Positions 12,041-48,713 of a stretch of 53,409 bases of DNA are shown here, piece after piece. The stretch is from a virus. The notes beneath the pieces were generated by a model. That model ran no database searches and was not told the origin of the DNA. It was given only the letters and a program-made list of their open reading frames with translations. The stretch spans positions 1 through 53,409 of IMG/VR virus record IMGVR_UViG_3300020477_000034; one strand, 5' to 3'. The position numbers were made by a program, and so were the translations under genes. How positions within the stretch are numbered: position 1 is the first letter of the stretch; each line of letters opens with the position of its first letter.

Positions 12041-14185
12041 ATGCAAAAACTATTTCTCATAGTATCTTTCCTGGTACTTTTCTGTACTAGTGCAATAGCT
12101 CAAATAACAGGTCCAAAAGTTGGCGAAGTCATAGGTTCAATGGGTACGACTTGGAACGAAAGGGACGGTTCAACTGAAAACACTTCTACTGGTTATGAAT
12201 TACAGATGAACGACTTTCTTCAAACAGGTGAAGATGGTGGTATGATAATATCATATGTTGATAAAACTAAATTTACAATGGGACCAAATACAGAATTAAT
12301 TATTGATGAGTTTGCTTTTGATACTTCTGTTGTGCCAATAGAATTAGCAATGAACATATCGGTTAATGTAGGTTCATTTACATATGAATCTGGAAGTGTA
12401 TCAGAATTAGGTGGTGAAGTTAATATTAATGCTGGTAACGCTACGATTACGGTACAAGGTACAGCGTTTTCAGGTACCGTTGATACTTCAGGTAAAGCAA
12501 CAATTACTTTGTTGCCTGATAGTGATGGTTCAGTAGGTATGTTAACCGTATCTAATGACGCAGGTTCTCAAACAATTACAAACGCATTTAATTCCGTAAC
12601 CGTTTATAATAATGATTTAGCACCTACACCTCCTAAAATAGAAACTAATAAACAAAACATTATTGAGTTAGATAAATTTGAAGAAGATATAAAAGAAGAT
12701 GTTGAGAAATCTTTTGGTGATATGGATACTAAAGTTGAAAAAGCACAAGCAATGGAAGAGGCGATAATAAATGAAGAAGTAAATGTAGTAGAGAACAATG
12801 ACACAATTGTTCAAACAGATATGTCTGTTAGTGAAGGTGACGCAATAATTGAAACACAATCAATAGAAGAAAAAGGTTTAGATACAGCAGTTGTAGAATC
12901 AGAAGTAGATACATCTTACTATGATGAATGGGAAGATGATTTAAAAGAGTGGGGTTATATAGATGAAGATAACCAGATTTCTGTATGGGATGCTGAAGGT
13001 GAAAAGACTATGGATTGGGATGACGCTAAACAAATGTATGCTGAAATGGACCAAGCATATTTTGACGCAATAGGTTGTTCAGATTGTAGTTGGGATAGTG
13101 TTAATTGGGATGATATAAATTGGGATGAAGTTGATTGGGATGCTTATGATGAGGCATATAACGAAATTTTATCTGACTATGGTCTTGCTTCTTGGAATGT
13201 AGAAGTAGTTGAGGAAGATGTAGTTGAAGAAACTAAAGAAGAAACAGAAGCAGAAGTAGTTGAAGGATATACTTGGGAAGATTTTGCTTTAGATGACGCT
13301 TACTATAGCAATTCTGAATACATTGCTAATGGAGGTCCTCCTACATTAACGGTACAAAACTATTGTGAGTACAATGGTTACGAAGACTATTGGTGTAACC
13401 AAGACTATGTTGATTACTTAAACGATTGGTATAAAGATGACTGGACTTTAAAAGTAACCAATGATAGTTGGACTAAAGAAGCTAAAAAGATATTTGGTAA
13501 ATTATATGGTTGGTGTGGAAGTTGGCCAAACTATAAGATGTGTGCTGACCAACCTAAACCTTGGAAAATGAAAGATTTAAAAAAGACTTACATAACTGAT
13601 TGGGAATGGTCAGATTGGGATACATATTGGGACGCATTATACGATTGGTGGTACACAGGTTACGATTACAATAATGAAGATGACCAATCTAGTTGGGAAG
13701 ATGAATATGCTTACGAAGATGACTATGATATAGACGCAGAACTAGAAATATTATTAGCTAGTTATAATGAAGACGAGTGTTTAAAATATGGATACTATTG
13801 GGACAATGCTAATTCTAGTTGTGGTACTGAATGGGTTGATAATACTGGTGCAGAAACACAGGTAACTGCTAGTGGTGAAACTTTAAACTATACTACTGGA
13901 GATGTAACCCAAACTTTAACTACAACGGATGGGGTTACAGGTGCGACTTCAAGTGCTACTTCCACAGGAAGAGTATCAACATTAAATAATGATTTTGACG
14001 CTACTGCTTCTACTAGTGGTGACTACACAATTATAAATAGATATAACGATAATCATAGAGCTTATGTAAAAACTGAAACGAGTAATGAGGCAGATATTCA
14101 AATTTTACAAGATAAAGAAGCACAACACCTTGATGTGGGAAATTCCTCTACCCAAAATAATATAACAATAATACAGACAGATTAG
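12041..14185 (+). CDS. FecR-domain secreted protein with Asp/Trp/Tyr-rich region and curlin-like C terminus
   Basis: 714 residues. Signal peptide (about 1-21, ...TSAIAQ). FecR domain (about 25-190: FLQTGEDGGMIISYVDKT, TKFTMGPNTELIIDEF, AGNATITVQGTAFSGTVD). Then an acidic helical linker, and a long Asp/Trp/Tyr/Glu-rich region (about 290-590) with short repeats such as NWDDINWDEVDWDAYDEA and clustered Cys. The C-terminal about 70 residues (YTIINRYNDNHRAYVKTE; NNITIIQTD) revert to curlin-like strand-turn pattern. It starts one base after the curlin-like gene. FecR domains in bacteria are often encoded beside CHASE2 proteins, which matches the neighbouring cyclase. Could be a surface nucleator or adhesin; inferred. 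Confidence 0.75.
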   Translation: MQKLFLIVSFLVLFCTSAIAQITGPKVGEVIGSMGTTWNERDGSTENTSTGYELQMNDFLQTGEDGGMIISYVDKTKFTMGPNTELIIDEFAFDTSVVPIELAMNISVNVGSFTYESGSVSELGGEVNINAGNATITVQGTAFSGTVDTSGKATITLLPDSDGSVGMLTVSNDAGSQTITNAFNSVTVYNNDLAPTPPKIETNKQNIIELDKFEEDIKEDVEKSFGDMDTKVEKAQAMEEAIINEEVNVVENNDTIVQTDMSVSEGDAIIETQSIEEKGLDTAVVESEVDTSYYDEWEDDLKEWGYIDEDNQISVWDAEGEKTMDWDDAKQMYAEMDQAYFDAIGCSDCSWDSVNWDDINWDEVDWDAYDEAYNEILSDYGLASWNVEVVEEDVVEETKEETEAEVVEGYTWEDFALDDAYYSNSEYIANGGPPTLTVQNYCEYNGYEDYWCNQDYVDYLNDWYKDDWTLKVTNDSWTKEAKKIFGKLYGWCGSWPNYKMCADQPKPWKMKDLKKTYITDWEWSDWDTYWDALYDWWYTGYDYNNEDDQSSWEDEYAYEDDYDIDAELEILLASYNEDECLKYGYYWDNANSSCGTEWVDNTGAETQVTASGETLNYTTGDVTQTLTTTDGVTGATSSATSTGRVSTLNNDFDATASTSGDYTIINRYNDNHRAYVKTETSNEADIQILQDKEAQHLDVGNSSTQNNITIIQTD

Positions 14186-42617: not shown

Positions 42618-43553
42618 ATGGCAATTTTAAGAGGCGGTAAAAGAATAATGGGTATGGATATCCGATTGGGTATTCCAAGAGACCGTTCAATGGATAACAT
42701 TAATAGGGATCCTAGATTTAAACAAAGAGCAGGTGCCAACCCAGCAACAACAATAGGTAGATACCAATCCTATGTAAATGAAGCAGAAGGTTTTGCTCGT
42801 AAGGCAAGATTTTATGTTGTATTTGAATTACCAAGAGCTAATTTTGAAGAAGATGAATCTTCTTCTGGTATGATTAACCAAGCTAAACTATCAAAATTTT
42901 CAAAAGAAGCAAATCTACAAAAAAGAGTACAGGCATTTTGTTCGCAAGTAAGTATGCCTGAAAGAACTATGAAGACGATTGCAGTTAAACATAATGGACC
43001 TGCTAGACACATAGTTAACGATTATGAAATGGCAGATGTAGATATGACATTTTATACAGACAAGTATTTGAGAGAAAGAATATTTTTTGAAATGTGGCAA
43101 AAGACTGCCTTTTCAAATATGACACACAATTATTCTTATTATGATGAGTATGTTGCACCAATTAATATATTGCAATTAGGTGCTGATCCAGGTGCTCAGG
43201 AGAGAGACGGAGCAACATATGGAGTTAGATTATGGGAAGCGTATCCAGTTAAAGTAGGAGCAGTAGAATATGCTTCAGAAACTAACGCTGCTCAAACATT
43301 TACGGTATCTTTTAAATATAGATACTGGTTAAATTTTGCAATAGACCAACAAAACAAATTTCATATTGGCCAATCACAATTTGGTATGCCAATAGTGAAA
43401 GAAGGTAAATCTGGATTTTTATCTAAATTACCACCTGAATTGAGGAGAGCAGGTGAACAGGTATTACAGAATTTGAAACGAAGTTTCCCTATTGGGAAAA
43501 TAACAGGTGGAAGAGTTATGCCACCATTCAAGTTTGGACCACTAAATATATAA
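42618..43553 (+). CDS. 54: Baseplate tail-tube initiator, T4 gp54-type
   Basis: 311 residues (T4 gp54: 320). Tail-tube fold elements: RFYVVFELPRA, SQVSMPERTMKTI, NDYEMADVDMTFYTDKYLRE, IFFEMWQKTAF and VSFKYRYWLNF. gp54 starts tube (gp19) polymerisation on the hub. Followed by gp26. Confidence 0.8.
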   Translation: MAILRGGKRIMGMDIRLGIPRDRSMDNINRDPRFKQRAGANPATTIGRYQSYVNEAEGFARKARFYVVFELPRANFEEDESSSGMINQAKLSKFSKEANLQKRVQAFCSQVSMPERTMKTIAVKHNGPARHIVNDYEMADVDMTFYTDKYLRERIFFEMWQKTAFSNMTHNYSYYDEYVAPINILQLGADPGAQERDGATYGVRLWEAYPVKVGAVEYASETNAAQTFTVSFKYRYWLNFAIDQQNKFHIGQSQFGMPIVKEGKSGFLSKLPPELRRAGEQVLQNLKRSFPIGKITGGRVMPPFKFGPLNI

Positions 43554-43585: not shown

Positions 43586-44320
43586 ATGGCTTTACCAAAG
43601 ATTGATGTCCCAACATACGAGTTGACATTACCATCGGAAGACAAAGTTGTACAATATAGACCGTTCTTGGTCAAAGAAGAAAAACTATTAATGATTGCTA
43701 TGGAATCTGGAGAAGACAAACAGGTTCAACAGGCAGTTTTAGATTTAGTTAATTCTTGTACTTTCGGAAAACTTAAACCAGCAAGTATGCCAATATTTGA
43801 CATAGAATATTTGTTTTTAAATATTCGTGCCAAGTCAATTGGTGAGATTGCTAAGTTTAGAGTTTTTTGTCCTGAAGATAAGGTAACATTAATTCCTGTT
43901 GAGATAGACTTAACTAAAGTTGAAGTACAAGTAGACGACAACCATACAAACAATGTGTTATTAGACGAACAAAGACAACTAGGTCTTGTTTTGAATTATC
44001 CAACTATGAGCTCCGTTCCTATGGGCGTAGGTGATAAGTTTAGTACAGAACAAATATTTAAAACAATTATTTCCTGTATTGACTACATCTATGAAGGTGA
44101 ACAGATCCATAAGGCAAAGGATAGCTCCAAAGCAGAACTAGAAGAGTTTTTTAATAGTCTTAATACTGACCAATTTGCAAAAATCAGAAAATTTTTTGAT
44201 GAAATGCCTAAATTGCGACACGAAGTAGAGGTTGAGAATCCCAAAACTAAAGTAAAATCAACGGTTACCTTTAGTGGCTTAGCGGATTTTTTCGTATCTG
44301 CCTCTCCCACAGCGACCTAG
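43586..44320 (+). CDS. 26: Baseplate hub subunit / tail assembly chaperone, T4 gp26-type
   Basis: 244 residues in frame 0. LPSEDKVVQYRPFLVKEEK and FRVFCPEDKVTLIPVEIDL are typical of gp26. Strong AAGGAG ribosome site. It ends just after a canonical -1 frameshift signal (44287-44325), so a fraction of ribosomes should make a longer fusion, as for lambda gpG/gpGT chaperones upstream of the tape measure. Located upstream of the tape-measure gene (47175), which fits. Confidence 0.85.
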   Translation: MALPKIDVPTYELTLPSEDKVVQYRPFLVKEEKLLMIAMESGEDKQVQQAVLDLVNSCTFGKLKPASMPIFDIEYLFLNIRAKSIGEIAKFRVFCPEDKVTLIPVEIDLTKVEVQVDDNHTNNVLLDEQRQLGLVLNYPTMSSVPMGVGDKFSTEQIFKTIISCIDYIYEGEQIHKAKDSSKAELEEFFNSLNTDQFAKIRKFFDEMPKLRHEVEVENPKTKVKSTVTFSGLADFFVSASPTAT

Positions 44321-44325
44321 AGGCG
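44287..44325 (+). promoter_or_regulatory. -1 ribosomal frameshift signal in gene 26
   Basis: Slippery heptamer TTTTTTC (44287-44293; frame 0 codons TTT TTC), 6-nt spacer, then stem TGCCTCT (44299-44305) with AGAGGCG (44319-44325; six Watson-Crick pairs and one wobble). The gp26 stop codon lies inside the stem. Confidence 0.8.
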
Positions 44326-44499
44326 TACTATGAAACTAACTTTGCACTTGTCCAACATCATAAATATAGTTTAAGTGAACTAGAATCTATGCTTCCGTGG
44401 GAACGGGATGTATATGTGGGTTTATTGGTTAAATACCTGAAAGAAGAAAAGGAAAAGGCACGAAGGGATAACCTTCAAAGAGGCCAGACTAAAATATAA
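44293..44499 (+). CDS. -1 frame extension of gp26 (trans-frame C terminus)
   Basis: The -1 frame is open from the slippery site to TAA at 44497-44499, adding about 68 residues. It contains DLEAYYETNFALVQHHKYSL and ESMLPWERDVYVGLL, then a Lys/Glu/Arg helix. There is no suitable start codon, so it should exist only as a fusion to gp26, spanning 43586-44499. The conserved-looking aromatic motif argues it is real protein. Confidence 0.75.
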   Translation, partial: RICLSHSDLEAYYETNFALVQHHKYSLSELESMLPWERDVYVGLLVKYLKEEKEKARRDNLQRGQTKI

Positions 44500-45277: not shown

Positions 45278-46354
45278 ATGAAAATAGATTTTAAAAAGAA
45301 TATTCAAAATATCATTGGCGTGGTATTATTGGCCGCTGTATTATTATCAGTTGCTTTTACTAGTAATAGTAATAAAGGTAAAAAAGTTGAAGTACTTAAA
45401 GAAATAGGATTACTACAAGAAGTTAGAGAACGAGGTTTTGTAAGATGTGGAGTTAATGCAAATTTACCTGGTTTTTCTGCTCAGGATGAAAACGGAAATT
45501 GGTCTGGTTTAGATGTTGATTTCTGTAAGGCAGTTGCCGCTGCTATATTTGGTGATTCAAATAAAGTAGAATATGTAGGATTAAATGCTGCTCAAAGATT
45601 TCCAACATTAGCGTCAGGTAATATTGATTTACTTGCAAGAAACACGACTTGGACAATTAGCCGTGATGTTAACTTAATGTTTGAATTTGCAGGCGTTAAC
45701 TATTACGATGGACAAGGGTTTTTAATACCAACAGAACTAGGCATTGAAAGTGCTAAAGAACTAGATGGTGCCTTTGTTTGTATTACAAAAGAAACTACAT
45801 CTGAACTGAACTTAAACGATTATTTTGCAGAAAACAATATGACATATAAACCAATATATGTTGAAGGTAATAAAGAAGCAAAAGCTAAATTGTTTGGTGG
45901 CGAGTGTGATGTATTCACAACAGACGCTTCAGGTCTTGCGTCAGCAAGGTCTGGTGCAGAAGACCCTAGTAAATGGGTTGTTTTACCAGAAATTATATCA
46001 AAAGAACCATTAGGTCCACTTGTAAGACAAGGCGACCAAGAATGGGAAGATGTAGTTAGATGGACACATTTCATTATGGTAAATGCTGAAGAAGCAGGTA
46101 TCACTAGTCAAAATGTGGATATGATGTTAACTGCCAAATCAAAAGAAGTTAAAAGAATATTGGGCGTAGAAGGTTATGTAGGTCCAATGTTAGGACTTGG
46201 TATGAAATTTGGTTATAATATTATTAAACAAGTTGGTAACTATGGAGAATCATACGAGAGAAATGTAGGACCAAATACTCCTCTTGCATTAGAAAGAGGA
46301 CTAAACAAACTATGGAAGGATGGTGGTGTTATGTATGTACCACCTATCAGATAA
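45278..46354 (+). CDS. aapJ: AapJ-like L-amino acid ABC transporter binding protein
   Basis: 358 residues, the full AapJ/BztA length. N-terminal signal or anchor (about 12-32). Binding-protein signatures: RGFVRCGVNANLPGFSAQDE, GLDVDFCKAVAAAIFGD, LLARNTTWTISRDV, FAGVNYYDGQGFLIP, CDVFTTDASGLAS, PEIISKEPLGP, RWTHFIMVNAEEAG, IKQVGNYGESYERNVGP and a final PPIR. These match alphaproteobacterial general L-amino acid binding proteins nearly end to end. No transporter permease is present. Flanked by tail genes on both sides in the same orientation. May boost host amino-acid uptake or bind a host surface; both are inference. Confidence 0.95.
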   Translation: MKIDFKKNIQNIIGVVLLAAVLLSVAFTSNSNKGKKVEVLKEIGLLQEVRERGFVRCGVNANLPGFSAQDENGNWSGLDVDFCKAVAAAIFGDSNKVEYVGLNAAQRFPTLASGNIDLLARNTTWTISRDVNLMFEFAGVNYYDGQGFLIPTELGIESAKELDGAFVCITKETTSELNLNDYFAENNMTYKPIYVEGNKEAKAKLFGGECDVFTTDASGLASARSGAEDPSKWVVLPEIISKEPLGPLVRQGDQEWEDVVRWTHFIMVNAEEAGITSQNVDMMLTAKSKEVKRILGVEGYVGPMLGLGMKFGYNIIKQVGNYGESYERNVGPNTPLALERGLNKLWKDGGVMYVPPIR

Positions 46355-47174: not shown

Positions 47175-48713
47175 ATGGCCGCAACAACTTTAACAGAAGC
47201 AACCGAAGCAGAAATATTAAAAATATTTAAAGTTGTTGCGAAGAAATCAATCACATCCGTTGAAGGTATGGTCCAAGCGACCAAACCAAAATTAAACGCT
47301 TTAATCGCAGAAACAATAGACGCATTTAGAGACTCACCTAGAAATGTTGAGAAAACGATGGATACACTTATCCTTCGTATGAAAGAACTAGGAATGAGTG
47401 TTGATGACTTGTCTGGAGATATGAAAAAACTGCCTAAAGGTTTTGAAAGTCTCCAAAATGCTTTAAGAGCAAAAGAACAAAACAGAATTCTAGTAGAGAA
47501 ACAAGTAGAAGATTTAAGAAGTAAAGGTATTGCCGCTGAAATAGTTAATAATAAAGTTAAAATCATCACTCAAAAAGAAATGAAAACGAGAGAAGATAGG
47601 TGGGCAAAAACACAGGAAATTATTAATAATAGACATACAGAAGTTTTAAAAGCAACAAAAGAATTAGAAACAATTACAAACAAAACAGATAGAGCTAAAA
47701 AAGAAGAATTTATTATTAAAGAACGAGAGAAAATAGTTGAAGCCGAAACAAAATTAGCAAATAAAAAAGAACAAGCCAAAGGTAAAACTGCTGAAGAAGT
47801 AGGAGTTATGGGTCAAGGAGATATGATTGATTCTCAAGGTATTCTTTCTCCACTTGCCGACCAATTTATGGCAATTAAAGATAGTATTACAGGTCCATTT
47901 TTAGAAATGGCAGAATTAGGTAAGAGAATAGGTGTATCATTTAAGAACTTTGGTAAGGCAATGCTTACACCAATTAAATCATTAAAACTTTTTGGTGCTA
48001 ATTTGATGTTGTCAATAGTACCATTAATGTTAAAAACATTGGCATTTCTTGCTGTTGTCGCAATAATAACTGCTATAATATTTAAATTTGCTGATATTAA
48101 AGATAAACTTACTGAATGGTGGGATCAAATGTCTCAAACATTAGCAAATTGGTGGCAAAGTATGAAAGAATTAGGAACTAGATTGATGGAATGGGTTACA
48201 AATATACCTAAAATGTTAGGTGAGGCAGTTGGTAATGCAGTAGATTGGATGGCTGGTATAAAAGATAAAATATTAAATGGAATAAAAGGTGCTATTGAAT
48301 CTGCTACAGATTTTATTGTAGATGGTTTTTATTCAATAATCAATGCACCAATAAAATTATTAAACAAAATACCTGGTATTAATATACCACTTCTTGGAGG
48401 CGAAGGTGCCGCTGCCGCTGAAGCAAGTAGTGTAACCGCTGACCAAATAGTTGCAGAACCAAGTAAAGTACAAATGGACAAAGACGAAAGTAAATGGTAT
48501 AAACCTTGGACTTGGAATAAAGACGATGACGAAATAGCAGAAGTGATGAAGACAGAAGCAGTTGCTCCTGTTGGTGCAGGAAATAATGTTATTGTACAAG
48601 ACAATAAGACAATTAGTAATACTCAATCAAATGCTGAAACATCTATGGTTGCTAAGGCAGATAAGAATCCTGAACCATCTAGTTTTTGGGATAAAATATC
48701 ATTTTGGAACTAA
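47175..48713 (+). CDS. 29: Tape-measure/tail-length protein, gp29-type
   Basis: 512 residues. N-terminal helical region (about 1-190), a long coiled coil (about 130-205), then a hydrophobic middle (about 270-320, LMLSIVPLMLKTLAFLAVVA) typical of tape-measure proteins. After that come Trp-rich repeats (LTEWWDQMSQTLANWWQSM) and a disordered C terminus. Sits after gp26, as in T4-like gene order. Length is below T4 gp29 (590). Confidence 0.75.
   Translation: MAATTLTEATEAEILKIFKVVAKKSITSVEGMVQATKPKLNALIAETIDAFRDSPRNVEKTMDTLILRMKELGMSVDDLSGDMKKLPKGFESLQNALRAKEQNRILVEKQVEDLRSKGIAAEIVNNKVKIITQKEMKTREDRWAKTQEIINNRHTEVLKATKELETITNKTDRAKKEEFIIKEREKIVEAETKLANKKEQAKGKTAEEVGVMGQGDMIDSQGILSPLADQFMAIKDSITGPFLEMAELGKRIGVSFKNFGKAMLTPIKSLKLFGANLMLSIVPLMLKTLAFLAVVAIITAIIFKFADIKDKLTEWWDQMSQTLANWWQSMKELGTRLMEWVTNIPKMLGEAVGNAVDWMAGIKDKILNGIKGAIESATDFIVDGFYSIINAPIKLLNKIPGINIPLLGGEGAAAAEASSVTADQIVAEPSKVQMDKDESKWYKPWTWNKDDDEIAEVMKTEAVAPVGAGNNVIVQDNKTISNTQSNAETSMVAKADKNPEPSSFWDKISFWN

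Follow-up and report, generated by a model that had tools for sequence, protein, structure and literature searches.

A predicted -1 ribosomal frameshift at the end of gp26 in a T4-related marine virus and its relatives

The elements that can make up a frameshift signal are exemplified by dnaX of E. coli: a slippery heptamer (A_AAA_AAG), preceded at about 10 nt by an SD-like element and followed by a hairpin. Long-tailed phages show G/GT-type frameshifting, in lambda with a product G that coats the tape measure and a product GT that recruits tube subunits, and T4 is listed as an exception to this rule (PMC5009743). The T4 protein gp51 is required for assembly yet absent from the particle (PMC3004832), as is expected of a chaperone; in 2010 it was noted that the gp51 of cyanophages and of marine vibriophages is without its first ~200 residues and Aeh1 was said to lack gp51 (PMC3037559). 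G/GT-type frameshifting is thus already known, and what is new in the following is its predicted occurrence across T4's relatives, a group listed as the exception. In the open full-text literature we found no earlier description of a gp26 frameshift (most subscription papers and bioRxiv preprints were beyond reach), and many phage records annotate the gp26/gp51 pair without one.

The window, by which we mean the whole stretch of DNA that was analyzed, is a linear virus fragment of 53,409 bases (an IMG/VR record) of the T4-superfamily type. The T4-superfamily genes it contains encode: a gp32-like SSB, a DNA end protector, a tail-tube type protein, gp48-like and gp53-like proteins and ribonucleotide reductase. 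Its source is a T4-related virus of marine bacteria, and the isolate nearest to the locus discussed here is Pelagibacter phage Mosig (51% identity for gp26, 70% for the -1 peptide). Elsewhere in the window, a gene that is unusual for a phage contig (7744-9435, - strand) encodes 562 aa that combine a CHASE2 sensor (E 7e-27) with the catalytic domain of a class III adenylate/guanylate cyclase (E 4e-21), and a 714-aa ORF (12041-14185, + strand), for which a FecR-like match stayed below threshold (E 0.002), possibly encodes a large structural or adhesin protein.

The gp26-like gene (43586..44320, + strand) has a 0-frame product of 244 aa, the G-like short form, which belongs to the gp26/gp51 family: it matches PF12322 (T4_baseplate, E 8.1e-66; 222.3 bits against a curated cut-off of 24.5) and phrog_150 ('baseplate hub', E 5.5e-71). 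The first-pass annotation had noticed a slippery TTTTTTC in frame with the gp26 codons and, behind it, a -1 frame that stays open for about 68 residues and has no start codon; all of this was confirmed. The gene ends in ...TTA GCG GAT TTT TTC GTA TCT GCC TCT CCC ACA GCG ACC TAG, in which the heptamer T_TTT_TTC (44287..44293, + strand; P site TTT 44288-44290, A site TTC 44291-44293) has the phase that fits tandem -1 slippage (GAT TTT TTC GTA), with CGT at 44293 as the post-slip codon. The 0-frame stop TAG lies at 44318..44320 (+ strand), its last base being 27 nt past the heptamer, and the -1 frame extension (44293..44499, + strand) runs for 68 codons up to TAA at 44497-44499, its first ATG being that of the MLPW motif at 44387, within the conserved domain. 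The predicted fusion has 304 aa, with the junction peptide ...GLADFFRICLSH... Within the ten long ORFs of the window, T_TTT_TTN occurs in frame only 3 times in 4521 codon positions. The motif in the -1 frame that had been called conserved-looking and aromatic is indeed conserved, and it proved to be part of an already annotated family, 'gp51': the T-like domain matches phrog_634 ('baseplate hub assembly catalyst', E 2.2e-27 with a query starting from 44287) and also the C-terminal 50 positions of phrog_150 (E 3e-6). The N-terminus is missing from this family because, on our reading, the frameshift would supply the gp26 part.

Relatives were gathered via gp26, via the -1 peptide alone and from named phages, and the gp26 and extension profiles were mapped independently on all loci. 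All of the first 87 loci carried T_TTT_TTN in frame, and in the full collection it was found at the same codon and in phase in 201 of the 205 distinct loci with gp26 and a -1 extension (165 TTTTTTC, 24 TTTTTTT, 11 TTTTTTA and 1 TTTTTTG), the loci recovered through the -1 peptide alone included. After clustering at 50% identity the slippery site was present in 45/45 representatives, and other Phe-Phe pairs of the same genes were slippery in 9/192 cases only. The codon before the Phe pair of the heptamer ends in T in 201/201 loci, against 125.6 expected from codon usage. Together these figures lie well beyond chance; like the substitution counts given below, they are pooled over related, non-independent sequences, which overstates significance, and they serve as effect sizes and not as exact probabilities. 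In most loci the 0-frame stop comes one codon past the heptamer: the distance is 6 nt in 149 loci, 27 nt in 27 and 3 nt in 22. The layout was found in phages of cyanobacteria and Pelagibacter and of Vibrio, Aeromonas, Rhizobium, Sinorhizobium, Ochrobactrum and Pseudomonas, for instance in: the Kyanoviridae (P-SSM2, S-RSM4, S-PM2, S-WAM1, Mosig, Melnitz and Ochrobactrum phage OC), the Straboviridae of Vibrio and Aeromonas (EniLVp02, ValKK3, Aeromonas 65 and Aeh1), the Pootjesviridae (P10VF, with TTTTTTG), Emdodecavirus (phiM12) and the Otagovirus Astolliot, where the stop follows directly after the heptamer. Conservation of the heptamer and of the open -1 frame in related phages, by which the first-pass annotation had proposed to judge its reading, was therefore found.

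The four loci of the 205 without T_TTT_TTN were two that look Ackermannviridae-like, to judge by host and genome size (L093 and L095), Vibrio phage pv27, which has two tandem genes, and L272, a T4-type gp51 locus whose frame is broken. In L093, L095 and a third locus that looks Ackermannviridae-like (L096) the gp26-like slip position reads ATT TTC or CTT TTC; L093 and L095 retain the -1 extension, and the stop lies in a TAATG in two of these three loci. These phages may have switched to reinitiation, perhaps relying on it alone.

The register of the extension was -1 in 254 loci and +1 in none, and the extension evolves as coding sequence in that frame, as judged from the substitutions at codon positions 1:2:3 in the pooled relatives (13690:6504:26064). 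The extension was found in the same ORF as the gp26-like part in T4-type gp51 genes only (11 loci). One further locus, a metagenomic contig (L175), has its gp26 frame broken 5' of an intact TTTTTTC, which is probably a sequencing error.

The T4-type genes show what the two frames amount to when they are joined. In T4, gp26 has 208 aa and gp51 has 249 aa; each matches PF12322, the two are paralogues (E 4e-19), and the C-terminus of phrog_150 and phrog_634 are covered by T4 gp51 alone and not by T4 gp26. We compared a profile of 97 in-silico fusions with the T4-type gp51 and gp26 families: with gp51 it aligned over columns 5-277 of 300 (240 columns, E 4.9e-24) with no break at the slip point, and with gp26 over columns 5-229, stopping at the FF of the slip site (E 4.7e-28). 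In a joint alignment the unfused gp26 and the -1 peptides fall edge to edge along gp51. A single gp51-like chain, with a gp26-like N-terminal domain and the C-terminal extension, results only if a frameshift joins the frames. Genes 26 and 51 are adjacent and divergently oriented in T4, and likewise in Aeromonas phage 31, whereas Vibrio phage pv27 has a short and a long gp26-like gene in tandem (811-2153 of its locus). T4 thus appears, from these alignments, to encode the short and the long form as paralogous genes 26 and 51 in place of a slip, and its lack of G/GT-type frameshifting would be explained by its having homologues of both products as separate genes. The literature on 'truncated' gp51 can be understood in the same way: what the cyanophages and vibriophages seemed to have lost is gp26, read in the other frame, while Aeh1 seems to lack gp51 because its gp51 domain sits in the -1 frame after a heptamer (GAT TTT TTC GAC TGA, followed by the -1 domain). 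A search with the T4 gp51 protein against Aeh1 gave no match, a result that is uninformative by itself.

Could gp51 instead be a separate small gene, expressed by termination-reinitiation or from its own start, with the T run being incidental? Many records do annotate small gp51 ORFs, an ATG in the -1 frame near the stop (-30 to +12 nt) is present in 54/205 loci, and TAATG or TGATG overlaps or a nearby ATG are found in some lineages (Vibrio ValKK3 and EniLVp02, Rhizobium P10VF and phiM12). However, 151/205 loci, the window included, have no such ATG, many of the annotated gp51 starts sit inside the conserved domain (at MLPW), loci without any start keep the heptamer, and the peptide starts in register with the gp26 FF and follows on from it without interruption in T4 gp51. 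An open and conserved -1 ORF without a start of its own is what characterizes the G/GT-type chaperones, and a start is present in only a minority of the relatives. We consider a separate gp51 improbable, and as a general mechanism independent initiation was rejected on account of the 151 loci.

The surroundings of the heptamer were inspected for elements that could stimulate a slip. The first-pass annotation had described a 6-nt spacer and a 7-bp stem containing the frame-0 stop. A possible hairpin, GCCTCT (44300-44305) with AGAGGC (44319-44324), is present at 44300..44324 on the + strand behind a spacer of that length; its stem has 6 Watson-Crick base pairs and reaches 7 only by counting U44299.G44325, which shortens the spacer to 5 nt, and the TAG at 44318-44320 shares no more than two bases with the 3' arm. 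The local fold is mildly unusual (z -1.5, 13/200 shuffles being equally good). The arms are near-invariant in the 17 members of the window's clade, with compensatory changes absent, and in two other sub-clades hairpins with compensatory changes occur at the same place. The stem is the weakest element of the window's predicted signal. Over the relatives, the 75 nt 3' of the heptamer have a mean folding z of -1.58 against shuffles, compared with -0.5 for upstream controls. Upstream, many relatives write a Glu-Gly pair as GAG GGN, which contains the SD-like GAGG: this Glu is GAG in 90/116 cases versus 26% elsewhere in the same genes, a bias that survives but weakens after 50% clustering (11/17), and the calculated anti-SD pairing in the relatives is strongest for 8-mers whose end lies 8 nt from the heptamer. 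No strong SD-like element was found upstream of the heptamer of the window, where the SD match is poor. From these patterns, an SD-like element or a hairpin may stimulate the slip.

The same elements bear on a second alternative, namely that the fusion is made by transcriptional slippage on the T run. T runs can make RNA polymerase slip, and 24 loci have seven T's and some eight, but 165/205 runs are exactly six T followed by C, which is short for polymerase slippage, the codon phase is fixed, and the SD spacing and downstream hairpins are typical of ribosomal stimulators; we regard this alternative as very unlikely. That one ORF was split by a mistake in sequencing or assembly, or because the gene is broken, as the resemblance of the two frames together to an intact T4 gp51 might suggest, has next to no probability and was rejected, since the same break with the same heptamer recurs in ~200 distinct loci, finished isolate genomes included.

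The 3' end of gp26 is, then, very probably a programmed -1 ribosomal frameshift site at which the fusion is made by a slip on T_TTT_TTC, as had been proposed at the outset; the conservation of the heptamer, the uniform -1 register and the homology of the fusion to T4 gp51 all argue for it. Most ribosomes would read GAT TTT TTC and stop soon after, giving the short gp26, and some would slip back by one base, read CGT and make the long form. That ribosomes shift in vivo is strongly indicated by the sequences, from which we infer the existence of a ratio between the two products as well. In some lineages the overlapping TAATG or TGATG, or a nearby ATG, could add free peptide by reinitiation. We further think it likely that -1 frameshifting (yielding gp26 and gp26-51) is ancestral in the T4 superfamily and that T4 and its closest relatives duplicated the gene into a short-form 26 and a long-form 51, pv27 representing another duplicated state; the gp51 'catalyst' would then be a GT-type chaperone that acts with gp26 on the tape measure gp29. 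T4 would thereby provide a natural experiment, in which a frameshift ratio was swapped for two independently expressed genes.

AlphaFold modelled the window gp26 with a pLDDT of 91.7 and a T4-type gp51, taken with a mixed alignment as a stand-in for the fused protein, with 95.2. When compared with solved structures by VIA-align, the gp26 model came nearest to 2ob9, the tail assembly chaperone of HK97 (Z 8.0, 83 residues), followed by the prophage-type proteins 3fgx (Z 7.5) and YqbN 3klu (Z 6.9), and then by matches at 4.8 and 2.8; Foldseek alone gave a weak match to 2ob9 (E 3.3, prob 0.30). The matches of gp26 suggest that its first 85 residues may fold like a tail chaperone. In the gp51 model the extension forms four short helices, the first of which runs across the slip point; there was no tail chaperone among its Foldseek and VIA matches, and gp51 may have such a fold all the same. 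If the two products behave like those of lambda G/GT and P2 E/E+E', the tape-measure protein would be coated by the short form, tube subunits would be recruited or nucleated through the helical extension, and neither the short form nor the fusion need be in the virion; a chaperone function of both towards tape measure and tube is the role we infer.

The genetic context can be compared in the same manner. Directly 5' of gp26, in the position of lambda V, lies a gene of the tail-tube/tube-initiator type (42618..43553, + strand; phrog_45 tail tube, E 2e-31), the Mosig counterpart of which is annotated 'baseplate tail tube initiator', and in the position of lambda H lies a tape-measure candidate (47175..48713, + strand) with weak PHROG tape-measure matches (best E 7.7e-6). 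The first-pass annotation had put gp26 upstream of the tape measure; the candidate does lie 3', with four small ORFs intervening between it and the -1 ORF. In the phiM12 record, a tape-measure-like gene is named two genes 3' of the gp26/extension locus. One of the four ORFs, amid the tail genes (45278-46354, + strand), encodes a family 3 extracellular solute-binding protein (SBP_bac_3, E 2e-14), and is a possible auxiliary metabolic gene.

Taken against the known systems, the evidence best supports reading this T4-type gene as one with a lambda G/GT-type layout. Like lambda, the window has a predicted -1 slip close to where the short-form ORF ends, an extension without a start codon and, as in the lambda order V-G-T-H, a pair placed between the tube and tape-measure genes. 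It differs in the slippery site (T_TTT_TTC versus G_GGA_AAG), in the shorter extension (68 aa) and in the extra ORFs before the tape measure. P2 E/E+E' shares with it the contractile tail, a T TTT TTG in the same phase (TTT TTG after GGT), the -1 direction and a short extension; the P2 site is directly before the tape-measure gene and its short form is much smaller (91 aa versus 244 aa). As single sequences, neither lambda T nor P2 E' had significant similarity to the extension (hhalign E 0.08 for P2). With dnaX many of the relatives share a homopolymeric heptamer, a similar SD-like spacing and a downstream hairpin; the dnaX slip ends the protein early, whereas that in gp26 would add residues, and the window is without the SD-like element. 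T4, finally, has in gp26 a homologue of the short form that ends at the slip point and in gp51 a homologue of the full fusion, extension included, encoded by two separate, divergent genes that need no frameshift.
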